A model generated the notes under the pieces. The model did no database searches, was not told the DNA's origin, and was given only the letters and a program-made list of their open reading frames with translations. Shown piece after piece: positions 1,079-20,807 of a stretch of DNA of 20,818 bases (its first letter is position 1; each line of letters opens with the position of its first letter). The position numbers and the translations under genes were made by a program. This DNA is from a virus: positions 1 through 20,818 of IMG/VR virus record IMGVR_UViG_3300025127_000358; one strand, given 5' to 3'.

Positions 1079-2944
1079 CTAAGATGCTTCCAACGCTGCA
1101 ACTTTAGCTGATAATTCTTGTATTGCTTTAACAAGAGGAGCAATAAGTTCGTTATAGTTCAAACCCATTGCACCTTTTTCTGGTTTATCAATTATTCCTA
1201 TACTATCAACATCTTTACCTATCTCTTTAATTGTTTCTTCTATATCCTGTGCAACTAAACCATAATGTGTCTTTTCGCCAAGTTCTTCATCATTCCATTT
1301 ATATGAAACAGCTTTTAATTTGTTAATAAAGTTAAGACCTAAATCGGAATCAATTATTGTATTTTTTTCATTCCTATCTGAAGTATTAATAGATCCATTA
1401 CTTGCATATACTGTTCCCCATCTTGCATCACTAGCACCGCAGTCGCCACCGTTAGTGCTATATGGTCTAATAGTACCAAGTATTCTGCAACCGTAATCTT
1501 CTGTTCTTACTCTTTGAGCACCATTAAAATACAGAATTGAAGTATTGTTAAGTCCAGTATATAGCATCCATTCGTCATTTACATCATTATAAATTCCAGA
1601 TTGAGAACCACCTTCGTGCATAAACACAACACGACCATCTATTGAAAATCCTTCCCAACCATTTTGACCACTTCCATTAATTTGTACACTTCCAAAACCA
1701 CCATCGCAATTGCTTAAATATCTAGTACTTTGACCAAGAAAAACAGTACTACAGTAAATATCCCTAACCATATTACCTGATTCACCAATATCATAATTAT
1801 TACTGCCTCCCGGAACAAAATGTCCGCTTCCATCTATAAACCATCTGTTCGTACCAGCCTCCCTAAATATAATTCCGTTTGACCCCCCGACTATGTATAA
1901 ATAATTACTATGATGTTGGATTTTTGTATTATTTCCTGACCAATCTCCGTTTGCAAATCCTATATCTTCATCGGCAGACACTCGAAGACTGCCAGTTTGA
2001 TTTGCTATATAGTTTCCATTTACTTGAAAGCCAGCATCAGCCCTTATAAGTCTTGGTGTATAAATATTTTTTGCTGTTTCTTGGTTGATTCTTAGCCAGC
2101 TATTATCTTCACAACCGATCTCTCCTATTCTTGTAGTTCCGTTATAAAAAATAATATGGTCTGAAATATTATTATCTATTTTTTGAATTAATATTCTTTC
2201 GTTATCATTACCATCACCAATTCTTAAGTCACGACCACCATCAACCCTTAAATCACCACCATTTACTGTAACTGCACCTGTGACTGTACCACCACTTAGA
2301 GGAAGATAACTAGATAAACTTCCAGAACCATTATTTGTAGCACCATCAGCTACGTTTAAAAATGATCTAACCGCAGCAGCAGTAGCGTGTCTTATAAAAC
2401 CATCATTATTTGATTCTGCACATATTCTTGTAATACTTCCAGTAGCAATATCGTTAGGAGTAGTGTTGAAATAAGTAGCATATATATAACCTCCGGGGTC
2501 AACTCTTCTAACTACAGTGCCGTTTGAACGGTCTGTTGAAATGGTATATGGGAACGAGTAGTTGTTTGCATTAGCAGCGATACCATTTAATTTAGTAAAA
2601 AGTGCATCAGTAAAAGCATTTGTATCACTGTTAGCTTCATAAGCAGTTTTTATTTCAGCGTTAGTTTGGTCTGCGGTTGCTGATGCTTCAATACCGTTTA
2701 ATTTAGAAAGAAGTGCATCAGTAAAATTATTATCTGTAGTTGTAAAAGAGTTAGTGGAAACAGATGTTACAAGTCCTTGAGCATTTACTGTTATAGCTGG
2801 TATTAAACTTGCCGATCCATAAGACCCTGCTGTTACACCAGAGTCCGCTAATTTACTGGCAGCAATATTAGCACCCGAATGAAGATGTGCATTTGTGATG
2901 CTGTTATTTTTTAAACCATCACCACTGATCTGTGTAAATGCCAT
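1079..2944 (-). CDS. Tail fibre protein with C-terminal Peptidase_S74 chaperone (621 aa)
   Basis: This is a long, low-complexity, beta-rich fibre protein and a likely host-recognition structure. Residues 1-70 form an ISGDGLKNNSITNAHLHSGA-type start common in marine phage fibres. Residues 73-89 and 110-126 are two copies of an xNxFTDALxxKLNGIxAxA unit. A Gly/Asn-rich shaft fills about 130-515. The C-terminal 100 residues are an S74 intramolecular chaperone beginning SDRNEKN at Ser522, with Ser522 and the following Lys527 as the expected catalytic pair, then a YGLVAQDIEE motif, and ending in a helix (ELSAKVAALEAS). In the S74 family, trimerisation of this domain triggers self-cleavage before the Ser. 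The start is preceded by GGAGG (2957-2953), which lies inside the last codons of the upstream gene; that gene's TAA directly abuts this ATG, so the two are probably translationally coupled. The host receptor is not predictable. Confidence 0.88.
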   Translation of the reverse strand: MAFTQISGDGLKNNSITNAHLHSGANIAASKLADSGVTAGSYGSASLIPAITVNAQGLVTSVSTNSFTTTDNNFTDALLSKLNGIEASATADQTNAEIKTAYEANSDTNAFTDALFTKLNGIAANANNYSFPYTISTDRSNGTVVRRVDPGGYIYATYFNTTPNDIATGSITRICAESNNDGFIRHATAAAVRSFLNVADGATNNGSGSLSSYLPLSGGTVTGAVTVNGGDLRVDGGRDLRIGDGNDNERILIQKIDNNISDHIIFYNGTTRIGEIGCEDNSWLRINQETAKNIYTPRLIRADAGFQVNGNYIANQTGSLRVSADEDIGFANGDWSGNNTKIQHHSNYLYIVGGSNGIIFREAGTNRWFIDGSGHFVPGGSNNYDIGESGNMVRDIYCSTVFLGQSTRYLSNCDGGFGSVQINGSGQNGWEGFSIDGRVVFMHEGGSQSGIYNDVNDEWMLYTGLNNTSILYFNGAQRVRTEDYGCRILGTIRPYSTNGGDCGASDARWGTVYASNGSINTSDRNEKNTIIDSDLGLNFINKLKAVSYKWNDEELGEKTHYGLVAQDIEETIKEIGKDVDSIGIIDKPEKGAMGLNYNELIAPLVKAIQELSAKVAALEAS

Positions 2945-4861
2945 TTAATTTGCCTCCAATGTTTTTACTTTAGCTTCTAGTTCTTGAACTGCTTTTACAA
3001 GCATAGGAATTATTAATTTTTCATTTACTCTTAAAGGATTATCAATTACTTGTTCTTCTATTGTTAATGAAGATTCAGAAAAATCTTGTACTAAATTAGC
3101 ATCAACAGTTTGAACCTCTTGTGCAATAAATCCATATAAAGTATTTTTTTCATCATCACAGAAACCATCTATCCAGTTAAATGAAACAGGTCTTAAAGAT
3201 TTTATAGCAGATAAGCCTTTATCCAAATCAACTACATTTTTTTTAAGTCTTGAATCTGATGCGTTATAGATGTTAGTTCCTGATGGCGCACCTATATTTC
3301 CACTACTATCAATCGTTAATCTTAAAGTATCAGATGAACCATTTCTTATAATAAAACTGTCACTAGCTTCTCCTCCTATACTACATCTATGTGTAGAGCC
3401 TGCCGCAAAAACCCATCTAAGTTTTTTTGCTTGCATTATTTCAACGTCACCAGCACTATCGATTCTGAATCTTTCTGTATTAGCAGTAGAAAAAGCTAAA
3501 GTATTGTCTGCTGGTCTATATATTGCTGCTGCTGTAGAAGGTGTTGATATTGAGCCACTAAAGTCAATATATGTACTATTCATATTTAAATTAGTGCCAC
3601 TTACCTTAACACCTGTACTTGTAGTCTCAAACTTTTTACTGCCATCGTGATACAACTCACAGGCTCCATTAGCTACAAAAACAGCCATATTTTCACTACC
3701 GTCACCATTAAGAAAATGATGTCTAGTGTTTGAATAATAAGCTAAGGGATGACTAGCACTTTGAATAAGTGAGGTACTTCCATCATGCCAAACCAGTAGG
3801 TCTGGACCATTTCCAAGAGCTACTTTACGGTTATCGTCTAAACCTAAGTCACCATTTATTTCTACTCCCCAACTTTTAACATCTAGCATTACAGCGTTGT
3901 CATAGTGAAGTCTAGGTCCTGTATTGACTGTAGGAACGCTTATATAATCATGATCTCCAGCTTGATTTTGTAAAGCAAATACATCGCTTTGAAGTTTTAA
4001 ATAACCTGTTGTATTTTCAATAACAGAATTAGAAGCATTGTGAAATAAATTTAAGTCCCCAGAAGATCCTATTCTTATTTTATTATTGTCATCACAAGTA
4101 AGATCTCCTGTCCATTTAGCACCAGCACTTGTAGTCTCAAACTTTTTACCGTTGTCGTAATAAAGGGCTACGCTTCCGTTTACTGTACCAGTTAAATAAA
4201 ACTCACTAGAAGCATTATTAAGCAGCTCAATTCTATCGCTTTGTAATCTTAAATCACCAGTTGAATTTTTAACAATAGTGTGAGAACCTGTATGATAAAT
4301 TTCTAAATCATTACCTGTCCCAAATCGAATTTTTTGATTATCAACAAGATCTACATTTGTAGCTAAGTCTGTTCCAACAATTGTTCCGTCTACTATCTTT
4401 GCACTTGTAACACTATTGTCTGCTGGTACAGCTATATTTAGAGATCCATAAGTAACAATAAAAAAGTCTGATCCTGCAGCTGGTGCAGCAGCAAAAATAA
4501 TATCATTACCATCTATCGCAAAACCTTCACTAGGACTTGTCCCCGAATTAGGTTTTTGAACTACACCATTGATACTTACTAGCAACTGTTGAGCAGAAAC
4601 AGAAGGCGGATTGCTTAATGTAAATCTAGTAGCAGTACCATTGAACGTAGCACTACCACCGCCAGAGCCAGATGAAGAAGATAAGGTATTGATAAATATA
4701 TCTGATCCCCCACCACTGCCACTAATCTCAGCAATAGTTCCATTATCTTTTTTGGTAAATAACTTACCACTGTCAGTTCTTATCGCTACTTCACCAACGA
4801 CAAGATCACTGGCACTTGGATCGCTACCGCTTCCTCTTTTTAGCTTAATAACATTAGCCAT
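2945..4861 (-). CDS. Tail fibre protein with triplicated shaft module and Peptidase_S74 chaperone (638 aa)
   Basis: The N-terminus MANVIKLKRGSGSDPSA resembles that of the next fibre gene upstream (MANTIRIKRSTGSSAP), which suggests a shared attachment domain in residues 1-50. A Gly/Ser linker (about 48-70) leads to a beta-rich domain (70-145). Then come three related modules of about 80-88 residues (roughly 171-252, 253-340, 341-421), built on DNxKIxxGxGxDLxIxH and KKFETTSxG signatures. The C-terminal 104 residues form an S74 chaperone from Ser535 (SDSRLKKN, Lys540 as partner), with YGFIAQEVQ and a terminal coiled coil (ELEAKVKTLEAN). In this family the chaperone is expected to be cut off after trimer folding. 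A textbook AGGAGGT lies 8 bases before the ATG, the strongest ribosome site in the fibre cluster, which fits high expression. Receptor binding is inferred. Confidence 0.88.
   Translation of the reverse strand: MANVIKLKRGSGSDPSASDLVVGEVAIRTDSGKLFTKKDNGTIAEISGSGGGSDIFINTLSSSSGSGGGSATFNGTATRFTLSNPPSVSAQQLLVSINGVVQKPNSGTSPSEGFAIDGNDIIFAAAPAAGSDFFIVTYGSLNIAVPADNSVTSAKIVDGTIVGTDLATNVDLVDNQKIRFGTGNDLEIYHTGSHTIVKNSTGDLRLQSDRIELLNNASSEFYLTGTVNGSVALYYDNGKKFETTSAGAKWTGDLTCDDNNKIRIGSSGDLNLFHNASNSVIENTTGYLKLQSDVFALQNQAGDHDYISVPTVNTGPRLHYDNAVMLDVKSWGVEINGDLGLDDNRKVALGNGPDLLVWHDGSTSLIQSASHPLAYYSNTRHHFLNGDGSENMAVFVANGACELYHDGSKKFETTSTGVKVSGTNLNMNSTYIDFSGSISTPSTAAAIYRPADNTLAFSTANTERFRIDSAGDVEIMQAKKLRWVFAAGSTHRCSIGGEASDSFIIRNGSSDTLRLTIDSSGNIGAPSGTNIYNASDSRLKKNVVDLDKGLSAIKSLRPVSFNWIDGFCDDEKNTLYGFIAQEVQTVDANLVQDFSESSLTIEEQVIDNPLRVNEKLIIPMLVKAVQELEAKVKTLEAN
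3599..4351 (-). repeat. Three tandem fibre-shaft modules of about 80-88 codons
   Basis: Within the 638-residue fibre gene, three consecutive modules (about 4351-4106, 4105-3842, 3841-3599) share the protein pattern of an 'N-K-I/V-x-x-G' strand, an 'IYH / LFH / VWH' strand and a loop. Modules 1 and 3 end in KKFETTSxG. The DNA is mostly diverged, but the codons for the KKFETTS segment in modules 1 and 3 keep an identical run of just over 20 bases (near 4130-4152 and 3614-3636). This indicates module duplication or local recombination. Confidence 0.6.
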
Positions 4862-6305: not shown

Positions 6306-6571
6306 TAAAAGTTTCCTCCGTCAACTAGATTTTCAACAGTACGAGTAGCATCTGCTTTAAATGTACCATCTGATTGAGAAAAATACACTACTGAGTTATT
6401 TACTTTAGCAGAATCATTTAAAGAAGTTCCTGTTGCAGCAAAGGCTGGACCTTGTGGCCCTTGTGTCGCAATCTCAACAACGCTTGATCCTCCGTTAACA
6501 GTAACAGTATTAGTTTGTTCACTAACAGATACTGTTGTTTTTGTTTCGGTAATGTTTACACTGTTACTCAT
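6305..6571 (-). CDS. Small collagen-like tail protein (88 aa)
   Basis: 88 residues. A Thr/Val-rich N-terminal part has alternating strand-like residues (VNITETKTTVSVSEQTNTVT). A very short collagen-like GPQGPA follows at residues 54-59. The remaining part resembles fibre tips (VVYFSQSDGTFKADATRTVENLVDGGNF). The final DGGNF parallels DGGTY at the end of the following 474-residue protein. The gene overlaps the upstream stop by four bases (ATGA), and its own stop TAG overlaps the GTG of the next gene by one base. The codons for its C-terminal Gly-Gly supply that gene's GGAGG ribosome site. It is likely a minor fibre or fibre-connector protein; the exact role is unknown. Confidence 0.7.
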   Translation of the reverse strand: MSNSVNITETKTTVSVSEQTNTVTVNGGSSVVEIATQGPQGPAFAATGTSLNDSAKVNNSVVYFSQSDGTFKADATRTVENLVDGGNF

Positions 6572-6912
6572 GTTGTTGTGTAGCCCTCACTCATATATAT
6601 TGTACCCTCTAAATAATATTCTTTGACGCTTGATGGATTAACTAATAGAACATCATATTTTAAAACATTTGGAGTAAATGTTGCTGTCTGAGTATCAGTC
6701 AAACCTATAGTTACAGATCCAGCAGACCTGTCAGTATAAGTAACAGCAAAATCAGCATATTTTATGGTGCGTGTTTCTTCCCAGACCTGTGCAGCCACAG
6801 TATATCCAGTTAAATTTATTGCATTATTAGAACTATCTTTAAAAACCAAAGGAATATTATGTGTTGAACGTCTTTGTAACGTAAAATTATAAGTTCCAGG
6901 TTCGATTGCCAT
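6568..6912 (-). CDS. BppU-like baseplate/tail beta-sandwich protein (114 aa)
   Basis: 114 residues with the pattern YNFTLQRRSTHNIPLVFKDSSNNAINLTGYTVAAQVWE. This is the signature of the BppU N-terminal type beta-sandwich domain (IPLxFKDSxGxPINLTG), which in siphophages sits in baseplate or receptor-binding assemblies and is also frequent as a small stand-alone structural protein in marine phages. Further strands follow (SVTIGLTDTQTATF; KYDVLLV; YYLEGTIYMSEG). Length agrees with a single domain. The start ATG directly follows the previous gene's TAA, and the stop overlaps the next gene's ATG by four bases, so expression is coupled. A link between the tail tip and fibres is inferred from family and position. 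Confidence 0.72.
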   Translation of the reverse strand: MAIEPGTYNFTLQRRSTHNIPLVFKDSSNNAINLTGYTVAAQVWEETRTIKYADFAVTYTDRSAGSVTIGLTDTQTATFTPNVLKYDVLLVNPSSVKEYYLEGTIYMSEGYTTT

Positions 6913-7260
6913 TTAACTTGACCAAGATGAAGGTTTACCTAAAGACAGTCTAGGTGTTTGACTTTCAATTATTTCATTTTTCATCTTTGTTTCTAATTCA
7001 GCTACAATTGAATCTCCCAATGCTGTTTTTACCCAACCAATAACTTGAGATTCAGTAAGACTTTCAAAAGGAGTTACAGTACTACCTTTGTCAAATCCAT
7101 GCGTATTAGTTCTGACAGATTGATATCCTTCAGAAGAAGTGCAGACCACTTTATAATGAACACAAGTAACTAAACCCTGATCTGGGTTATTTGTGTTGTA
7201 TTCTAAAGGTCCTGCTGGATGATTTAAAGACCAAACAGTTGTATAGGTCGGATCAGCCAT
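6913..7260 (-). CDS. DUF7936-like small structural protein, copy 1
   Basis: 115 residues. A beta-rich N-terminal half (TTVWSLNHPAG...VTCVHYKVVC) is followed by a helical part with GWVKTALG at residues 75-82, LETKMKNEIIE, and a TPRLSLGKPSSWSS end. It aligns in layout with the 111-residue protein at 715-1050 and appears to be a paralogue with low overall identity, extended at the C-terminus. The family is frequent in cyanophages and its function is unknown. The ATG overlaps the end of the upstream coiled-coil gene by eight bases. There is no Shine-Dalgarno at the usual distance; the start context is TTTAAATGGCT as in its paralogue. Confidence 0.75.
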   Translation of the reverse strand: MADPTYTTVWSLNHPAGPLEYNTNNPDQGLVTCVHYKVVCTSSEGYQSVRTNTHGFDKGSTVTPFESLTESQVIGWVKTALGDSIVAELETKMKNEIIESQTPRLSLGKPSSWSS

Positions 7261-7438
7261 TTAAAGGTTCAGTTACAGTTTCTTCTTTAGGCATCATTTC
7301 TTTTACAGCATCTTCTTTGCCTTGTAAATAATATAATTCAGCTTCGCAGTTTTTTGCTGCCAACTGAGCTTGCTGTAAATTTGTTTGTAGTTGCTGTCTT
7401 TTTTCAGCAATTTCTTTTAGTTTCTTTTCGTGATCCAT
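7253..7438 (-). CDS. Small coiled-coil protein (61 aa)
   Basis: From the ATG at 7438 the protein is MDHEKKLKEIAEKRQQLQ..., with heptad-like Leu/Ile spacing, many Gln/Lys/Glu residues and one Cys, ending in a Pro/Glu-rich tail. It should form one alpha-helical coiled coil over about residues 3-48. A TTG two codons upstream (7444) could also start the frame, but ATG plus the charged MDxEKKL start seems more likely. No recognisable ribosome site lies upstream of either. Short coiled-coil proteins of this kind occur beside fibre genes in cyanophages. A structural or assembly role is inferred only. Confidence 0.65.
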   Translation of the reverse strand: MDHEKKLKEIAEKRQQLQTNLQQAQLAAKNCEAELYYLQGKEDAVKEMMPKEETVTEPLNG

Positions 7439-7484
7439 AAACAAAGATATTTAAAATAAATATAGCTTGAAAACAAGTATAAGT

Positions 7485-8954
7485 CTATTTAGATTCTAGA
7501 GTTTCTACTCTGGCAATAAGTTCCTGTAATGCTGCCACCGTAACAGTTATTAATTTTGTTGAATCAAGTTTTTGCATTTTAGCTCCATCCTTTTCTCCCA
7601 CAACTGCTTCTGGACAAACTTCAGAGACTTCATGAGCCAAAAATCCATCAAGAGTTTTATATGAACTTGAATCATTTTCTCTTGCTTCTATAAAGTTAAA
7701 TCTTTTTGGTTTTAATTTTTTTAGTCTTGTAATACCGTCATCAATATCAACTATATTTTCTTTGAGTCTATAATCAGAAAAACCTAATTGTAACATCTGA
7801 CCTTGGTTTGTTACTTCAATACTACCCCTTTCATCCCCAGATTTTCTAAATACTATAAACTCACCCCCATTTCCATTAGTATTCAGATTTAACATTGCAG
7901 TTGAATCACCCCTACTTATATACAGACAATTAGCATTTTCAAAAGCAAAACCAGTTGTTGTATCGCTGGTAGATGTACCAGGTGTATTTGAGGTGTCTTG
8001 ATTAATTCTTATATGACCTTCTCTAGTAATAACCATTCTTGATGTTGAACTTCCCGAAGCTGCCTTTGTAGCCATTACAAGTCTTGCTGTAGCAGACGTT
8101 CCATCGTGCCTTGCAGTTACCGAAGCAAGTTCAGCCGTACTACCATTTACTGTTCTAAACCCACCCAATATTTCGCTACCGCTAGGAGTCCCGTCATGAT
8201 TAAAAGTAATACACGGTCTTTGTCCTGTACTAACGCCAGAAGTTATGTGCATTACACTATCATTCTGAGGAGTAGAAGTACTACCAAACATATATTTGCC
8301 CGAACCTGTCGCTTTAAGATGAATGTGTTTAGCACTATCTTGATTATTTATTAAGGTATTACCAGAAGCATCTATACCTATTACTGAACCATCAGTGGCA
8401 AGAGCACCTGTGTTTGTATTTGTAAAATGTGAAACTACAGTTGTAGTAGAATTTCGATGTCCTCTAAAAATACTGTTGCTGTAGTAACCTACTGCTGTAA
8501 CATCATCTGCCAATATTAAATTTGGAGAGTTAGGTATTCTAAGTTTTATTGTTGTATCATGTCTTAAGTCAAAAATATTTGCTGTACTTGTAGTTTGACC
8601 TCCATTTAAAACTATATTTGCACCATTATTAGCAGTACCTCCTGATATAAATAAACGACTTGTGTTATCAGCTCTAACAATATCAGTTAAAGTATTTAAA
8701 ACCGTTGTAGATGTACTAAGCAAACCTAAATTTGCTGCTGTTATATCTCCTATCGTTGTATCTCCACTTGATGAACCAGAAGTTGCGACTTTTAAAGTAT
8801 TACCTTCAATAAATAACGTACCAGCTACAGCATAACTTGGCCTTGTAGATCCTTTATTGGTTGTTAGCACTCCCTCTGTAAATACATTGGTAATATCATC
8901 CAATACTTGAGCACCTGTGCCATCAGCTATTGAGTAATCAGTAGGTCTTGCCAT
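7485..8954 (-). CDS. Tail fibre protein with C-terminal Peptidase_S74 chaperone (489 aa)
   Basis: This is the first fibre gene after the J-like tip gene. Residues 1-90 form an N-terminal domain (MARPTDYSIADGTGAQVLDD...), probably the part that docks on the tail. Residues 90-390 are a Thr/Ser/Gly-rich beta shaft with a VTARHDGTSATARLVM segment and a late FRKSGDERGSIEV segment. The last 97 residues are an S74 chaperone from Ser393 (SDYRLKEN, with Lys398 as the expected catalytic partner), containing GFLAHEVSEVCPEAV and a C-terminal coiled coil (LQELIARVETLESK). S74 domains fold the trimer and then release themselves by cleavage before the Ser. The start has an A/T-only leader (TATTTAAAAATGG) without a Shine-Dalgarno. 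It lies 23 bases after J. Confidence 0.88.
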   Translation of the reverse strand: MARPTDYSIADGTGAQVLDDITNVFTEGVLTTNKGSTRPSYAVAGTLFIEGNTLKVATSGSSSGDTTIGDITAANLGLLSTSTTVLNTLTDIVRADNTSRLFISGGTANNGANIVLNGGQTTSTANIFDLRHDTTIKLRIPNSPNLILADDVTAVGYYSNSIFRGHRNSTTTVVSHFTNTNTGALATDGSVIGIDASGNTLINNQDSAKHIHLKATGSGKYMFGSTSTPQNDSVMHITSGVSTGQRPCITFNHDGTPSGSEILGGFRTVNGSTAELASVTARHDGTSATARLVMATKAASGSSTSRMVITREGHIRINQDTSNTPGTSTSDTTTGFAFENANCLYISRGDSTAMLNLNTNGNGGEFIVFRKSGDERGSIEVTNQGQMLQLGFSDYRLKENIVDIDDGITRLKKLKPKRFNFIEARENDSSSYKTLDGFLAHEVSEVCPEAVVGEKDGAKMQKLDSTKLITVTVAALQELIARVETLESK

Positions 8955-12838: not shown

Positions 12839-13467
12839 TCGTCAGTTTCTACTTGAACTTGGTTAGTGTCTACAGACGCAGAAATAACTACCGATCCTGT
12901 AACTATTTCTCCATATACTATAGGAAGTGCAGTTCCAGGTCTAGCAGTATTTTGAACTCCATTAAAATTAAATGATAATCGAGGATCTGATTCAGTATTT
13001 GCATCGGGAATAGGAAATAATAATTCAGAAATACCAGATAAAGCTAAATGAGCACCAACATAAAAAGCAGATTTTGCAGCAAAACTAGCACCAGTAAATG
13101 AAATTCCTCCTGCTTTACTAAAAGTTAAAACGTCTCCCCCAAATAGAGCACCTCCTCCTAACGCACCAAAAGACATAGCTATCAATACACCTCCTAATAA
13201 AATTTTACCAAACCTACCTCCAGCACCACTTATAACAGGAACAATACTAATATCTGATTGTCCTAAAGGATCATGCAATTCGTCTTTGGATATTTCTTTC
13301 TTATCAACTAAAACCTTATAGTTTTTATCTGACATATATTTTTCTATGCCATCAAAATTATAAACTAAGAATTTAACAGCATCAGCAGCAGAATTTATAA
13401 CAACATCAAATTCATTCTGCTTGGTATAACTAGCTAAATCACCATATAGTTTAAGGGTTCTTAACAT
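12835..13467 (-). CDS. I: Tail assembly protein, lambda gpI-like (210 aa)
   Basis: The N-terminus MLRTLKLYGDLASYTKQNEF begins a ubiquitin-like beta-grasp domain (residues 1-75, ending DISIVPVISGAGG). This is followed by a Gly/Ala-rich hydrophobic stretch (about 80-150) and a C-terminal ARPGTALPIVYGEIVTGSVVIS motif typical of this family. In lambda, gpI is needed for tail tip assembly with K and J but is not abundant in the virion. Length is close to lambda I (223 residues). The gene overlaps the K-like gene by 17 bases and the J-like gene by four, so translation is likely coupled. Confidence 0.9.
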   Translation of the reverse strand: MLRTLKLYGDLASYTKQNEFDVVINSAADAVKFLVYNFDGIEKYMSDKNYKVLVDKKEISKDELHDPLGQSDISIVPVISGAGGRFGKILLGGVLIAMSFGALGGGALFGGDVLTFSKAGGISFTGASFAAKSAFYVGAHLALSGISELLFPIPDANTESDPRLSFNFNGVQNTARPGTALPIVYGEIVTGSVVISASVDTNQVQVETDE

Positions 13468-14158
13468 ACCTATACCTCTTTGCTGTACATTTTAACAACC
13501 ATAAACTATAAGGCTCTCTACAACTAAGTCTATCTGCTAAATGGTGTAAAACCATGTCTCCCAAATAAATTGCGACATGATTTAAAGTTGGATGCATAAT
13601 ACTCATCAACAAAACATCTCCCACCTGTAAATTTTCACCTACACGCAATTCTCTAAAACCAGTTCTCCACGCATAACTTTCAAATAAGGGATTTTCTAAA
13701 AATTCTTCTGGAGTCATACTACGGTCATAATCTTTAAGAAGTATATTTTTTTCTTTTTTATAATAATCTCTAACTAAACTCCAACAGTCTGTAACACCCC
13801 AGATCCATTGTCTGCCAAGCAAATCAGGAATATAACCATCAGGTTCTCTATAGATCCAATTACCCGTTCTAGGGTCTACTATATGCCACGGGAGCTTACT
13901 GTTTTCACAGTTAACCTTATCACTTTCGCTAAATACTAAATTAGTTGTTGGATGGCTATGAATTATTGCAATTATATCTCCAGCATTTGCAGCAATAGCA
14001 TAATCCTCTGGATCTAATACAAAACATTTATCTGGGTTTAACGAAAGGTTGTTACATGGATAATAAACTTCTTTGCCTTTGACATTAACAAGTAAACCTA
14101 CAGATTCTTTAGGAGAATCTTTTTTGGCATGATCTAACGCCTTATCTTTCCAATGCAT
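13451..14158 (-). CDS. K: Tail tip peptidase with JAMM and NlpC/P60 domains, lambda gpK-like (235 aa)
   Basis: Two domains are seen. Residues 1-95 form a JAB/MPN (JAMM) metalloprotease domain with Glu18, His67-Ser-His69-Pro, Ser77 and Asp80 in the expected HxHPx(6)SxxD layout, so the zinc site looks intact. Residues 110-225 form an NlpC/P60 cysteine peptidase domain with catalytic Cys125 (TDCWSLVRDYY), His194 (HVAIYLG) and a third polar residue at His205/His206. In lambda-like tails gpK sits at the tip, and its NlpC/P60 part can cut peptidoglycan peptides during DNA entry. The gene starts at ATG 14158, sharing one base with the L stop (TAATG). Length matches lambda K (199-235 residues depending on start). 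Both active sites appear complete. Confidence 0.93.
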   Translation of the reverse strand: MHWKDKALDHAKKDSPKESVGLLVNVKGKEVYYPCNNLSLNPDKCFVLDPEDYAIAANAGDIIAIIHSHPTTNLVFSESDKVNCENSKLPWHIVDPRTGNWIYREPDGYIPDLLGRQWIWGVTDCWSLVRDYYKKEKNILLKDYDRSMTPEEFLENPLFESYAWRTGFRELRVGENLQVGDVLLMSIMHPTLNHVAIYLGDMVLHHLADRLSCREPYSLWLLKCTAKRYRYVKNP

Positions 14159-14937: not shown

Positions 14938-15308
14938 GGTTCAAATACTTCTCTAAATGTTGCCTGTATTATTGCCCTGTTTGAATAAGGTATTGATTTA
15001 TTCCATGTTTCACAAACAAATTTAGATGAACTAGCTTCTCCTGGAGGTTGAAAATCAAAACTGGCACTATCATTTGCTCTGGCATCAAGAAAATTCTCTA
15101 TAGTGTCAGCACTAGAAATTCCTGTACTATTAAAATTGTCTGACTCTGAAACATTAAAAGTAAAATTAAATACTTTTGGATTTTGATGTTGAGCTAATCC
15201 AAATAAAATTCTATGTTCATATCCATCAGCAAAACGTACTGTTCTAGTATTTGGTGCGGATCTTTTTTGCTGTCCATATGTTGGTGTAATTGAAGGAAAA
15301 GTAGCCAT
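14934..15308 (-). CDS. M: Minor tail protein, lambda gpM-like (124 aa)
   Basis: 124 residues, near lambda M (109). Family features include the start FPSITPTYGQQKRSAPNTRTVRF, the GYEHRI turn, the NFTFNVSESD strand, the FLDARANDSASFDFQPPGE loop and the C-terminal AIIQATFREVFEP. This is the Phage_min_tail family, related to distal tail proteins that join the tube to the tip. It lies between the tape measure (one-base overlap, TAATG) and L (ATGA overlap), exactly as in lambda. No catalytic motif is expected or seen. Confidence 0.9.
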   Translation of the reverse strand: MATFPSITPTYGQQKRSAPNTRTVRFADGYEHRILFGLAQHQNPKVFNFTFNVSESDNFNSTGISSADTIENFLDARANDSASFDFQPPGEASSSKFVCETWNKSIPYSNRAIIQATFREVFEP

Positions 15309-17194
15309 TATGCAAGTAAACCTCCAGGTCTTTTCTGCTGTATTAATTCTGATTGTATAGCAACAGATAAAGCACGACCAAGTTCTTTCCCTCTTTGTTC
15401 ATCGCCTTCAACAGAAGAGCCAGAAGCATCTACGTTTACAACAATATTAGTTGAACCACCAAGCATTTCGTTAGGTGTAATCATTCCAGACACACCTGGG
15501 CTAAACATTTCTGGACCACGTTCTCCTACAATATAACTTCCTCCTCTCGCAACTGGCCCACCATTAGCTCTTACTCCAACTGTCATATCAGTAAATCGAC
15601 TTGGTGTTGGAATATCGTATAAACTCTGTCCAGGTTTTACTCCGTAAGGATTCGTAAATATATTGGATAATAAACCTAACAATCCTTGTTGTAATTTATT
15701 AGCCATCATTTTTGCAGCAGTATCTAAGAAATGATCTGCTATCTTATTCAGCATATTTCTAAACGCATCAGCAACAGACATTGTTCCTTGAATTATTCCC
15801 TTAAATGAACTTTCAAATGAATTTGCCATTGTCTCTGATAATGTCATAACCATATAGATTGGATCTGATAATTTTTTTATTTCATCTTGCAAATCTTTTA
15901 CCTTGTCAGTAATAGCAGAAAACTGAAGTGTACCTGATATTCCAAATTGGCCTTGAGATTCTCTAAGAAGATCCAATAATTCTCTTGCTTCTATTATTCC
16001 TTTTTTATAATTTTCTAAAAGAGTTATATTATCTTCTGCAAATTTCTTTTGTAAAGTTTCAGCCCTTATATCGCCAGCTTCAGTTATCTTCATTTTTCCC
16101 ATCATTCTTAAAAGCAATAAACCTGGAGTGGATCCTCTTATTTGATCGAAAGGACTTACTGCTCTTGCTCTTGCTATAGCTGCGTCTTGTTCTGCTTTTA
16201 CCTTTGCTTTTACTAAAGCAAGTTCAACAACAGCAGCATCATTAGTTTGATTTTGTATTAAAAGATTTTTTGCAGCTTCGTTTCCAATTTGTTTCCTTGT
16301 ATCAAATATTTCTTGTGCTAATTTAGATGATCTATTTAATCCAGCAAATCTATCTGCTCCTCCCGCATCAGTTCCAAATATCATTGCCATTGATTTAGCT
16401 ATATCTCCATCGCCAAACTCTTTAAAAGCTCCTAAAACACCAAATGCTTCTTCTTTTGTAATACTTAAATTTTTTGCAAGATTATTTATTTCTTTTGCAG
16501 TAATAGCTGTTTCGCTACCAGTAGTTCCCATTCTTGTATTTAATTCCACTAATGATTTATTGAATTTGTCAGCTTTATCTACAGCAGCACCTATTGCAGT
16601 ACCAACAATAGATAACGCAAAACCAAACTGACCTCCAATCGCACCACCTGCTAAACCACCAAGTCCACCACCAACTGCTGCTGCACCTGTTTGTCCAAAC
16701 AATAAAGGGAAAGCTCCACCAATAGCAGCACTAGATACAGTTTGACCAAATCTCTTATTTCTTTCTTTATTAGCAGTTTTTTCTTTTGCTAAAGCTAGTT
16801 GTCTTTCAAGTTCTATTTCAGCCTTAGTAAGAGAAATACCTTTCTGTTGTGCGATCCTTTGTATCCTTAATGCACGATCTCTTGCTTTTAATTCTTTGTT
16901 ATATGTTTCTTCAACTTCTACTACATTTTTTATTGCTTTATTAAAATCTTCTGTTCCAATCGCAGCTTTATTTAACGCTGCTCTAGCACTATTGACTTCT
17001 TTTGATAAGGTTTGAAAACTATAAACAAAACTACCCTCTCCTTTCTTTTTCCCCATGCTCTTATTAACTGATCTATTAAATCTGTTTATATCTTTATCTA
17101 ATTCTTTTGTATTTTTTCTAAGATCTTTTATTTTTTGTGCTGCCTCTGTTGCACCCTTAAGAGCTAACTCTAAATTAACTTCGTAATTAGGCAC
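15308..17194 (-). CDS. Tail tape measure protein (628 aa)
   Basis: The start is GTG at 17194; the only ATG nearby (17210) meets a stop after one codon. Residues 1-145 are charged and helical, likely coiled coil. Residues 156-206 are a Gly/Ala-rich hydrophobic stretch (AFPLLFGQTGAAAVGGGLGG and onward), of the kind thought to enter or cross the host membrane. Residues about 210-450 are helical again. Residues about 450-505 contain SFKGIIQGTMSVADAFRNML, a conserved C-terminal helix of many tape measure proteins. Residues about 545-575 hold GGSYIVGERGPEMFSPGVSG, the common tape-measure tail motif. Using the usual 0.15 nm per residue, the tail would be roughly 95 nm. It follows the G/GT chaperone as expected. 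The protein is short compared with lambda H (853 residues). Confidence 0.92.
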   Translation of the reverse strand: MPNYEVNLELALKGATEAAQKIKDLRKNTKELDKDINRFNRSVNKSMGKKKGEGSFVYSFQTLSKEVNSARAALNKAAIGTEDFNKAIKNVVEVEETYNKELKARDRALRIQRIAQQKGISLTKAEIELERQLALAKEKTANKERNKRFGQTVSSAAIGGAFPLLFGQTGAAAVGGGLGGLAGGAIGGQFGFALSIVGTAIGAAVDKADKFNKSLVELNTRMGTTGSETAITAKEINNLAKNLSITKEEAFGVLGAFKEFGDGDIAKSMAMIFGTDAGGADRFAGLNRSSKLAQEIFDTRKQIGNEAAKNLLIQNQTNDAAVVELALVKAKVKAEQDAAIARARAVSPFDQIRGSTPGLLLLRMMGKMKITEAGDIRAETLQKKFAEDNITLLENYKKGIIEARELLDLLRESQGQFGISGTLQFSAITDKVKDLQDEIKKLSDPIYMVMTLSETMANSFESSFKGIIQGTMSVADAFRNMLNKIADHFLDTAAKMMANKLQQGLLGLLSNIFTNPYGVKPGQSLYDIPTPSRFTDMTVGVRANGGPVARGGSYIVGERGPEMFSPGVSGMITPNEMLGGSTNIVVNVDASGSSVEGDEQRGKELGRALSVAIQSELIQQKRPGGLLA

Positions 17195-17210: not shown

Positions 17211-17414
17211 TTATCTCATTCTACCTCTTTTCCCTTTCAAAGCACTACCTCTTTGTGCTTCTTGTTGTTGTTTCTCAAAATCTTCGTGTTCTATTTCTGC
17301 ATAAGCAGCCCAACCTAACATCTCTTCAACAGTTAAAGTTTCTGATAATTCAGCAACAGTTTTACCTAATTCTTTAGCTAATGAGAATATAAACTTCCAA
17401 TCTTTACTCGCTTT
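17211..17414 (-). CDS. Tail assembly chaperone, frameshifted second half (GT-like T domain)
   Basis: This 67-codon frame has no start codon of its own near its beginning. It opens right after a TGA (17417-17415) and runs to a TAA at 17211. It encodes KASKDWKFIFSLAKELGKTV, a TVEEMLGWAAYAEIEHEDFE segment and a Gln/Arg/Lys-rich end. The WxxIFSLAKELGKT...EEMxGWxAYxEIE pattern is typical of the second part of phage tail assembly chaperones, the part that binds the tape measure in lambda gpGT. The frame is +1 relative to the preceding chaperone gene and overlaps its end by 11 bases, so it should be made as a fusion of about 182 residues by frameshifting. The alternative, a one-base homopolymer indel in the sequence, would make a single uninterrupted gene. 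Confidence 0.8.
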   Translation of the reverse strand, partial: KASKDWKFIFSLAKELGKTVAELSETLTVEEMLGWAAYAEIEHEDFEKQQQEAQRGSALKGKRGRMR

Positions 17415-17760
17415 TCAATTCGGCTTTAGCCTCTACTACCCCCTTAGTCTGACCAGCTTCTATCATTGCTAATTGTATTTCCTGTAAAATATTTGCTTCG
17501 ACTTCTCTTCTAAGAGATGCTTTATCACCATCTTGAAAAAGTCTATCTCCATTTTTATCTAATGCTTTTGTAATCATCAATGATAAGGCAAAATCATTTA
17601 CATCATTTTCATTTGATTTTTTTGTTATCGATTCTCTTTCAGCAATCGTAAGTGGATGCCAATAAACACTGAAAATAATATTTCCGTCTTTAATTACGTC
17701 ATGTTGATATAGCTGGCTGACACCAAAACTATTCTTCAAAAGTTCGATTGCTCTAGTCAT
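17404..17760 (-). CDS. Tail assembly chaperone, first half (lambda gpG-like, 118 aa)
   Basis: 118 residues: TRAIELLKNSFGVSQLYQHD, then FSVYWHPLTIAERESITKKS, then NDFALSLMITKALDKNGDRLF, and a helical end with ILQEIQLAMIEAGQTKG. The Phe/Tyr-strand plus LTIAERE helix plus 'LDKNGxRLF' order is that of phage tail assembly chaperones lying just before a tape measure gene. In lambda, gpG and the frameshift product gpGT hold the tape measure and recruit tube subunits. The last codons (LKSE then TAA) contain the probable +1 slip site that makes the longer product. The gene starts 26 bases after the tail terminator stop, with a TATAAT-like element in between. The usual tail tube gene is missing upstream of it. 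Confidence 0.85.
   Translation of the reverse strand: MTRAIELLKNSFGVSQLYQHDVIKDGNIIFSVYWHPLTIAERESITKKSNENDVNDFALSLMITKALDKNGDRLFQDGDKASLRREVEANILQEIQLAMIEAGQTKGVVEAKAELKSE
17412..17415 (-). other. Probable +1 programmed frameshift site (AAAA)
   Basis: In the zero frame the message reads TTG AAA AGC GAG TAA. A lysyl-tRNA on AAA (17415-17413) can move one base forward onto an identical AAA (17414-17412) and continue as GCG AGT AAA GAT in the GT frame. The switch must happen here because the +1 frame has a TGA immediately upstream and the zero frame a TAA only three codons downstream. The -1 frame soon ends in TAG, which rules out the lambda-type -1 shift. A GGGGG run lies about 21 bases upstream, too far for a prfB-like stimulator. 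Confidence 0.6.
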
Positions 17761-17780
17761 AAAATAAGTATTGCTACTTT

Positions 17781-17811
17781 ATTATACTAGGCATTTGCTG
17801 AGAATTGGCAA
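17781..17811 (-). promoter_or_regulatory. Candidate sigma-70 promoter before the chaperone gene
   Basis: The minus strand carries TATAAT (17786-17781) preceded 19 bases earlier by TTGCCA (17811-17806). The -10 box is a perfect consensus. The -35 box matches four of six positions and the spacer is two bases long. Transcription would start about 15 bases before the chaperone ATG. AT-rich DNA gives such boxes by chance, so this is only a candidate for an internal promoter. Confidence 0.3.
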
Positions 17812-18215
17812 GATATTACACCAACAAAATGACTTCTATCTTCGATTTCAAGCATTGTAGGGCCATTTATATCCTGTACTCTTGGTTTTACACTAAAAGT
17901 ATCAACATAAGTAGAAGCATTTACAGAAGTTAAACCATCAATTACTGCTTCTGCTATCGCAGACAGTTGACTTGTTCCTTTACTTTTTGGAACGTAAATA
18001 TTACATTGAATAACACCTGAATAAAAATCTGAACTTGCTCCTTGATTTTGTAATGTAGAAGCTGTGTAATTTATCATCATCATTACATATTTTTTAGTCT
18101 TACCCGAAGTTGTAAAAGTAACATTGTCATAGACCATAGATACGGTTGGATCTGCGTCCGAAACTGCGTCTGTAACTGCCTTTTCAAATGCTGCTCTTGT
18201 TTTTACTAAAGTCAT
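17787..18215 (-). CDS. Tail terminator protein (DUF4128 / gpU-like, 142 aa)
   Basis: 142 residues with an alpha/beta layout. The start is a MTLVKTRAAFEKAVTDAV helix, followed by a VMMMINYTASTL strand, a SGVIQCNIYVPKSKGTSQLSAIAEAV strand-helix and a RSHFVGVISCQFSANA final strand. The 'xFYxGVIQxxIYVPxxxGT' block is typical of tail terminators of the DUF4128 group, which cap the tail tube and join it to the head, like lambda gpU. The position, directly after the HK97 gp10-like gene, fits. Normally the major tail protein follows; here the chaperone follows instead. The start ATG is three bases after the previous stop. Confidence 0.8.
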   Translation of the reverse strand: MTLVKTRAAFEKAVTDAVSDADPTVSMVYDNVTFTTSGKTKKYVMMMINYTASTLQNQGASSDFYSGVIQCNIYVPKSKGTSQLSAIAEAVIDGLTSVNASTYVDTFSVKPRVQDINGPTMLEIEDRSHFVGVISCQFSANA

Positions 18216-19718: not shown

Positions 19719-20807
19719 TTAAGAAATATTAGAAGTATCAAGTGGAGAGTTAACAATGATCTCAACCATAGGAATTAGATCGGGATCGTATGTAATACCC
19801 CAGTTATTAGAGTTACCTAACTGAGCGTTTGTTGGGTTGTCAGTAGCAGATGTCCACTTAGTTCCCATAACGTGATAAGCACTATGGTAGTCAACAGACA
19901 TAACATCTTGCTTAGATAAGATGTTTCTATCTGATTCAATGCTTAGAGGAGATTGCTCACCTTCAAGAATTGTTCCTGACTTAATTAAGAAGCAACGGAA
20001 CTCAGTCTGATGACCAGAAGAACCAGGAGCAACTGTATTAACTTGAGAGTCAATGACAACATTCATGCCAGCGAATTGACCGATACTTCTATCTGTGATG
20101 CCGACTCCACCGCCACCCCACTGGATACCAGTTCCAGTAGATAGTGCAGATGTTGAGAATGTAAGCATACCAACCTGATATAGGTAGTAAGCAACAGATG
20201 GATGAATAACTAAAGTATCTAGCTCTTCTCCTCTTTCTCCAAGAAGTGATCTACCTCTTGCAACAGCAGATGCAGTTAAGAAGTTAGCTTCAGCAGCACT
20301 TGTGCCAGCTTTAGCAATATCAAGCACGTTTGCACCTAAAGGACCAGAACCAGAAGCAAATAAACCATCTAGCAAACTGAATAGTCTTGCAGAGTTTAAC
20401 TTGTTGATAGCATCTGCAATTTGGTTTCTGATGTGACCCATTGGATCTTCACCAGCAGCCAATACAGCTACATCATCAACAGCATATGCAAAACCTCTGT
20501 GACAGATAGTTGCGATCTGTGTTCCTGTACCAATTTTCTGTGGTGTCAAATAACCAGAGTTACTTGTACCCCATGTTGCTGTACCATCTAAAATTTCTTC
20601 AGTTGGTGCGATTGGGTTAAATTCTGGAACCTGTATTCTTGTTCCACCTTCTGATGCGTCAAGAAGTGCGTTACGCACAACAGCACCAGATTTAATAAAA
20701 GCACTACGTTCTTTGATTGCCTCAGAAACATAGGTGCTCAAATTATTTCTCTTTACGATGTCAGCTAATAAGACACCACCAGAGTAATTCTGAAACGGAG
20801 CAGCCAT
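19719..20807 (-). CDS. Major capsid protein (Gp13-like family, 362 aa)
   Basis: 362 residues. The start MAAPFQNYSGGVLLADIVKR leads to ERSAFIKSGAVVRN and EGGTRIQVPEFNPI, a block typical of Gp13-like major capsid proteins. It continues with QIATICHRGFAYAVDDVAVLAAGEDPMGHIRNQIAD, another family hallmark: 'R..aw.vnDla...aG.DPm..I...va.yW'. The C-terminal part includes LVIHPSVAYYLYQVGML, IGQFAGMNVVIDSQ and RCFLIKSGTILEGEQ. The HK97 fold is expected. It is complete: ATG at 20807 in a CTAAATGGCT context with no Shine-Dalgarno in the 11 bases available, stop at 19719. A strong terminator follows. Codon use is somewhat less AT-rich than in the fibre genes, as is common for highly expressed capsid genes. 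Confidence 0.9.
   Translation of the reverse strand: MAAPFQNYSGGVLLADIVKRNNLSTYVSEAIKERSAFIKSGAVVRNALLDASEGGTRIQVPEFNPIAPTEEILDGTATWGTSNSGYLTPQKIGTGTQIATICHRGFAYAVDDVAVLAAGEDPMGHIRNQIADAINKLNSARLFSLLDGLFASGSGPLGANVLDIAKAGTSAAEANFLTASAVARGRSLLGERGEELDTLVIHPSVAYYLYQVGMLTFSTSALSTGTGIQWGGGGVGITDRSIGQFAGMNVVIDSQVNTVAPGSSGHQTEFRCFLIKSGTILEGEQSPLSIESDRNILSKQDVMSVDYHSAYHVMGTKWTSATDNPTNAQLGNSNNWGITYDPDLIPMVEIIVNSPLDTSNIS

Follow-up and report, generated by a model that had tools for sequence, protein, structure and literature searches.

How is the conserved second half of a viral tail gene translated if it lies in another reading frame than the first half and has no start codon of its own? The question is raised by the minus strand of IMG/VR record IMGVR_UViG_3300025127_000358, analysed as one whole stretch of 20,818 nt ("the window"). 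An original prediction, made from the letters of this stretch alone, had taken the two halves for a tail chaperone G/GT pair, with T in the +1 and not the -1 frame and the slip at AAAA; gene identity, offset and AAA_A all held in the homologues described below. To judge from these sequences, the locus is very probably a lambda/HK97-type G/GT pair of a Prochlorococcus-type siphovirus that is joined by +1 ribosomal slippage of tRNA-Lys on AAA_A. G/GT frameshifting sets the ratio of two proteins, a ratio on which long phage tails depend. The frame, the site, their conservation and the selection acting on the codons used there and farther upstream can be taken directly from the aligned sequences.

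Reading frames and slip site

In the zero frame of the minus strand, G ends with GCT AAA GCC GAA TTG AAA AGC GAG TAA, that is, with LKSE-stop as predicted (coordinates of the features are given in Table 1). The +1 frame has a TGA at 17417-17415, then reads AAA GCG AGT AAA GAT TGG AAG TTT and has its stop at 17213-17211. Since the +1-frame TGA and the zero-frame TAA bound it, the switch is confined to AAA AGC GAG (17415-17407), and within these codons full re-pairing is found only for AAA (17415-17413) moving to AAA (17414-17412). The predicted GT fusion comprises 116 + 66 = 182 amino acids (aa), in line with the product of about 182 residues that had been expected. Two other positions for the shift were rejected: at GGGGG in AAG GGG GTA the +1 frame would meet stops (TAG TAG / TGA), and at AGC-stop re-pairing for +1 is poor and the position of the stop is not conserved.

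T could also be translated separately, by re-initiation or from a non-canonical start, so that no fusion is made. Indeed, Shine-Dalgarno (SD)-like sequences lie upstream of the G stop. However, as the original prediction had noted, T has no start of its own: ATG, GTG and TTG are absent from the T frame of the window all the way from the upstream stop to the conserved block, no usual start is found among the commonest T-frame codons ahead of the conserved Trp in the clade of the window (clade A), and the homologous HK97 T domain is annotated within a frameshift fusion. Separate translation is extremely unlikely, and the T half would rather be expressed as the C-terminus of GT.

Two separate protein searches of IMG/VR found both halves at 134 loci (88 distinct regions), and T was in the +1 frame at all of them; one odd row of this survey (L139) was the window itself in the opposite orientation. 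A pattern search and a profile search starting from the G of KBS-S-2A widened the set to 251 distinct junctions, with T in +1 in 234 and in -1 in 17, and a third search, partly overlapping the earlier set, gave 39 further +1 and 23 further -1 junctions. Counted by 120-nt junction, the union contains 290 distinct junctions (259 in +1, 31 in -1). One family member was found on a 41-kb contig from the single-cell genome AG-418-M08 of Prochlorococcus; a second one is AG-345-A17, a marine virus from a single cell. Judged from the virus in the sorted cell, the host group is probably Prochlorococcus.

The original prediction had named a one-base homopolymer indel as the main alternative. If the window carried one A too many, by a sequencing or assembly error or because the gene has decayed, the homopolymer would be a plausible place for it. 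But all close homologues have the same offset, they come from many separate metagenomes and from the Prochlorococcus single-cell contig, and codon choice at the site is under selection. Hundreds of separately assembled contigs thus rule out the indel, and error or decay is given virtually no chance.

In homologues, both the offset and AAAA were conserved, a comparison that the original prediction had proposed: every +1 junction with an assigned site had an in-frame AAA followed by AGN, nearly always AGC. In the widened set, AAA AGN stood at most 4 codons from the G stop in 231 of the +1 junctions (AGC 224, AGG 3, AGT 3, AGA 1), and in the remaining 3 of 234 the identical AAA AGC lay at a greater distance from the stop. 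The third-search +1 junctions, which overlap the widened set by a few, had AAA AGN in 39/39 cases (AGC 38, AGT 1) with the stop 5 to 28 codons off, and 4 of the 39 had two candidate sites. Elsewhere in these G genes, in-frame AAAAGC occurred 8 times in 24,716 other codons. Since all homologues of the first survey had T in +1, T-frame codons varied mostly at third positions and AAAAGC is scarce elsewhere, the +1 offset and the motif are not a matter of chance. Paired in-frame AAAAGC motifs nine bases apart (ATG AAA AGC RTT AAA AGC TGA) were seen in L415, L426, L435 and L438, with T open from both, and are possibly a double shift site.

The codon preceding AAA was variable (TTA, TTG, CTC, CTA, CTG, ATG, TCC). 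A stop in the +1 frame just before the site, pointed out in the original prediction, is fixed in clade A, which always has TTR before AAA, but not in the whole family (CTC, CTG, ATG or TCC). The G stop follows AAA after 2 to 4 codons in clades A and B and after 5 to 28 codons in clades C/D; since this distance ranges so widely between clades, an adjacent stop, though usual, is not essential. The constant unit appears to be the P-site Lys codon AAA plus the following A, with Ser AGC as the next zero-frame codon and, in most cases, Ala GCN once the frame has changed. The canonical -1 arrangement, a slippery heptamer (X XXY YYZ) with T in the -1 frame, does not fit the window, which is among the 259/290 junctions with T in +1, and a stop directly after the slip codon, as at RF2- or PSA-type sites, was not found either: sense AGC follows AAA, and the stops come 2 to 28 codons on. 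An in-frame AAAAGC near the end of G, with T in +1, could serve as a rule for annotating GT where T is now without a coding sequence.

The same frame would result from a -2 shift, which is used by phage Mu (PMC5009743), or from a short bypass. In clade A, however, the AAA tRNA would land on TRA after a -2 shift, which is a stop codon and pairs poorly, and an earlier shift would meet the TRA stop; a G-/U-rich -2 motif is absent, the only sequence constant across the family being AAA AGC. We regard this route as very unlikely.

If the shift takes place on the ribosome, as we infer along with its efficiency and the roles of the products, the majority of ribosomes would stop at the end of G and make abundant G chaperone. 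In a minority, tRNA-Lys would sit in the P site on AAA with zero-frame AGC waiting and would slip one base forward from AAA to AAA, after which GCN (Ala) would be read and translation would run on into T, giving a scarce GT fusion. G would then coat the tape measure protein, and the T domain would recruit the tail tube subunit.

Selection on the RNA around the slip site

Synonymous changes were compared pairwise along G in clade A (172 sequences) and group B (48 sequences). In both clades, the strongest synonymous constraint in G was found at the slip codons AAA/AGC and at codons -8 to -3, with z values over three codons down to -9.6 (clade A) and -6.5 (clade B); these, like the z values given below, are descriptive and not probabilities, the sequences being related. 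Part of the constraint on AGC is explained by dual coding, since its GC begins the Ala codon of T.

Upstream of the site lies an internal SD-like sequence, AAGGGGGU in the window and AAGGAGGU in most relatives. In clade A, the mean duplex with the anti-SD reached -10.6 kcal/mol at -29 to -22, compared with a gene-wide 1% tail of -6.4, with z -2.9 against synonymous resampling. In group B the mean was -8.7 kcal/mol, found at about -24 to -15, with the gene-wide 1% tails lying near -6.5, and the best SD of clades C/D averaged -7.7 and started mostly at -27 to -20. An internal SD is thus under selection in both marine clades, A and B.

The second upstream element is GGC-UAAA-GCC, predicted to fold into a small hairpin to which the flanking GA...GA (17420-17433) could add tandem G-A pairs. 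It is encoded in clade A by the codons GAG GCT AAA GCC, with the choice of GAG and GCC invariant or nearly so. The hairpin Ala codon was GCC in 182/182 clade A sequences, compared with 13% of the Ala codons in the gene; group A was itself defined by the hairpin G and C, and GCC was also found in 86/86 close homologues picked by protein alone. Over the 18 nt ahead of the site, the predicted folding energy gave z=-3.5 against synonymous resampling and -2.9 when GC-matched in clade A; in group B no folding excess over synonymous resampling was found (z -0.2). Rare B variants retain the outer pair, as A-U in L297, L328 and L338 and as C-G in L348. A single hairpin common to all +1 clades was rejected, because B showed no excess and RNAalifold on A and B pooled left only 2 bp. 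RNAalifold gave no downstream stimulator in clade A.

In yeast, synthetic upstream hairpins raise +1 shifting (PMC3639245); they also do so in an E. coli 70S system, in which the effect on CUUUGA was seen only without RF2 (PMC6321510), and a "motor" model has been put forward for the 5' stem-loop of T4 gene 60 (PMC5009743). Because of the selection, the synthetic work and this model, we suggest that the upstream block would stimulate the shift, by the internal SD in both marine clades and, in the clade of the window, by the small hairpin, which would refold behind the ribosome and favour forward movement. The hairpin is thus a candidate natural upstream stimulator of +1 slippage in clade A.

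Several points weigh against programmed +1 slippage as set out here. The predicted hairpin consists of no more than 3 bp (about -3.5 kcal/mol), and its outer pair is unpaired in 45/49 clade B sequences; since it is absent from clade C and mostly unpaired in B, it cannot be a general requirement of the +1 shift. At about 17 to 23 nt upstream, the SD is farther away than at the +1 site of RF2, where it stands at short spacing. G had no detectable similarity to HK97 gp13 (probability 0.5%), which it is too diverged to match. Finally, a run of 4 to 5 As would formally also allow transcriptional slippage.

This last point concerns the main rival: RNA polymerase would drop one A of AAAA(A), helped by the nascent GGC-UAAA-GCC hairpin, and the shortened mRNA would be read in one frame. 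A hairpin-assisted one-base deletion has been described for a Roseiflexus insertion sequence (PMC5009743), and the hairpin of the window ends 10 nt ahead of the last A, which is roughly the length of one RNA-DNA hybrid. On the other hand, the run is short (4 As in 125/231 and 5 As in 106/231 junctions) with no trend to longer runs, the remaining hybrid (GANTTR) would be mismatched after realignment, the site is kept in clades B and C even though the hairpin is not, and codon-level selection for an internal SD points to ribosomes. Polymerase slippage is therefore judged unlikely. As to the supply of Lys and Ser tRNAs by the host, no tRNA-Lys was found among 30 scanned of 34 tRNA loci, and nothing is drawn from this.

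Probable forward and backward slippage within one family

Nearly all of the 31 -1 junctions have their own -1 slip sites. The -1 relatives include KBS-S-2A, S-2L, S-H1, HTVC026P and uncultured viruses, with -1 heptamers at the corresponding Lys codon, and P-HS2, which is -1 as well, without a clear heptamer; S-CBS4 had no recognisable G/T homologue within the stretch examined. Homologues with clear -1 sites, which the original prediction had counted as a point against the +1 shift, do therefore exist (KBS-S-2A, S-2L, S-H1, HTVC026P), but they belong to other lineages and hence speak for a switch of mode and not against the +1 shift of the window. The deposited annotations of KBS-S-2A, P-HS2, HTVC026P and S-H1 are without a frameshifted GT, though a conserved -1-frame T follows G.

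Clade C, with GAC ATG AAA AGC and T in +1, is well supported and nested in a KBS-like clade whose other members are -1. Parsimony on the tree gave five mode changes, two of them forced by well supported branches alone; the tree was made by a quick method, with Shimodaira-Hasegawa-like approximate likelihood ratio test (SH-aLRT) support only and some long branches. The frameshift mode appears to have switched at least twice in the family. G and T of the -1 relatives are homologous to those of the window, and in the KBS-like group the shift stands in a similar protein context, D-x-K(S/N). The -1 fusions of this group differ from clade C by a net 2 nt and align through the junction: GAC-CCA-AAA-TCC (-1) gives PK-I-LKQELKKDN, and GAC-ATG-AAA-AGC (+1) gives MK-A-LKAELKKDN.

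In one gene family, both slip directions are thus used at almost the same lysine codon, and the RNA signals upstream, though selected in each case, differ; this makes it testable whether SD spacing and a tiny upstream hairpin decide between a backward and a forward step. It is possible, if short of an even bet, that the invariant GGC-UAAA-GCC between a strong SD and AAA_AGC is a naturally selected +1 stimulator that acts where the mRNA leaves the ribosome and, at the same time, that the family changed between -1 and +1 at almost the same codon and retained the fusion protein. If both are true, the family would offer a natural system in which to compare what determines the direction of the slip.

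Gene identity, neighbouring genes and known systems

The assignment as a G/GT pair was made because T matches HK97 gp14 and the gene order fits. T was aligned with HK97 gp14, annotated as a -1 frameshift product, by hhalign (probability 95.5%, E=1.3e-8, 36 columns), and phrog_337 matched T in 10/10 members; this second half lies in the other frame, has no start codon and is conserved as protein. G is in the tail module directly upstream of the tape measure gene and matched phrog_344 "tail assembly chaperone" weakly (E=0.011). No Pfam family was matched by G or GT.

The minus strand of the window carries an HK97-like structural module. The major head protein is followed by a head-tail adaptor, two short genes, the tail terminator, G, T and the tape measure, and then by lambda-like minor tail genes M/L/K/I/J and fibres. 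The order terminator-G-T-tape measure was also found in L350, a Prochlorococcus single-cell virus contig.

Table 1. Features of the junction and of the neighbouring genes in the window
Feature	Position	Strand	Remarks
Major head protein	19719-20807	minus	
Tail terminator	17787..18215	minus	directly upstream of G; phrog_179 E=6e-11; PF13554 E=1.6e-4, under Pfam cut-off
Gene G, zero-frame tail assembly chaperone, 118 aa	17404..17760	minus	C-terminus AKAELKSE-stop; ORF; phrog_20784 E=3e-24; conserved across 134 close loci
Internal Shine-Dalgarno-like sequence	17438..17445	minus	ends 22 nt before slip codon
GGC-UAAA-GCC, predicted 3-bp hairpin	17422..17431	minus	ends 6 nt before slip codon
Shift site AAA AGC	17410..17415	minus	putative P-site tRNA-Lys AAA -> AAA; next codon GCG (Ala)
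Zero-frame stop TAA	17404..17406	minus	third codon past slip codon (AAA AGC GAG TAA)
T half, +1 frame	17211..17414	minus	reads K-ASKDWKFIFSLAKELGKT; without a start codon of its own; phrog_337 (tail protein) with E=3.7e-8
Tail tape measure protein, 628 aa	15308..17194	minus	expected partner of G and GT; phrog_10574 E=4e-12

No major tail (tube) gene lies between the tail terminator and G in the window (17760-17787), and the same gap is seen in L350 (5974-6001); KBS-S-2A and S-2L have a gene of 250-270 aa in this slot. The tube gene of the window may lie elsewhere or may be the 142-aa "terminator." The tape measure protein of L350 has 794 aa (6570-8954), compared with 628 aa in the window (15308-17194), with G and T conserved, which suggests different tail lengths. 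Three fibre-like genes of the window (1079-2944, 2945-4861, 7485-8954) share a similar C-terminal region (LKxN...Y-K/FNW...G-xAQE), which we take to resemble an intramolecular chaperone (peptidase S74-like), and two small proteins of one uncharacterised family, phrog_7802 (715-1050 and 6913-7260), stand on either side of the fibre genes. JAB-like and NlpC/P60 domains are combined in one gene at 13451-14158, as in lambda K.

The gene order, the short G ending at a stop and T in another frame are as in HK97 gp13/gp14 and lambda G/GT, and T is homologous to gp14; there, however, the shift is -1 at a heptamer, whereas the window has +1 at AAA_AGC and a G not recognisably like gp13. That +1 shifts are rare among G/GT pairs, as the original prediction had it, was overstated: a +1 G/GT shift is stated to be very likely in HSTV-2 (PMC5009743), and PRFect made use of 350 forward sites taken from frameshifts that are annotated in SEA-PHAGES (PMC10885494). 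These viruses have unrelated hosts and are likened to the window by description and not by sequence; to their G/GT pairs thought to be joined by +1, the family of the window adds a single fixed site, AAA AGC, and upstream RNA signals that are under selection. In bacteria, programmed +1 slippage is also known from Listeria phage PSA cps/tsh and from RF2 (prfB), the latter likewise with an upstream SD. In PSA, the shift is at CCC before a stop, or involves a pseudoknot, in the capsid and tail-shaft genes (PMC5009743), and in RF2 it is at CUU_UGA, whereas here Lys AAA precedes a sense codon and the adjacent stop is dispensable. A hairpin just 5' of the P site has been reported or modelled to favour forward movement in the synthetic constructs and in T4 gene 60 (PMC3639245, PMC6321510, PMC5009743); those were synthetic +1 tests and a 50-nt bypass, whereas the conserved 3-bp hairpin of the window is only predicted. 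In the literature searched, with most subscription journals outside its coverage, we found no description of the AAA_AGC site in cyanophage-like viruses. Shifts of +1 in G/GT pairs are already known from elsewhere, and what is new is the synonymous constraint at the site and at the upstream SD and hairpin, together with switching between -1 and +1 in one family.
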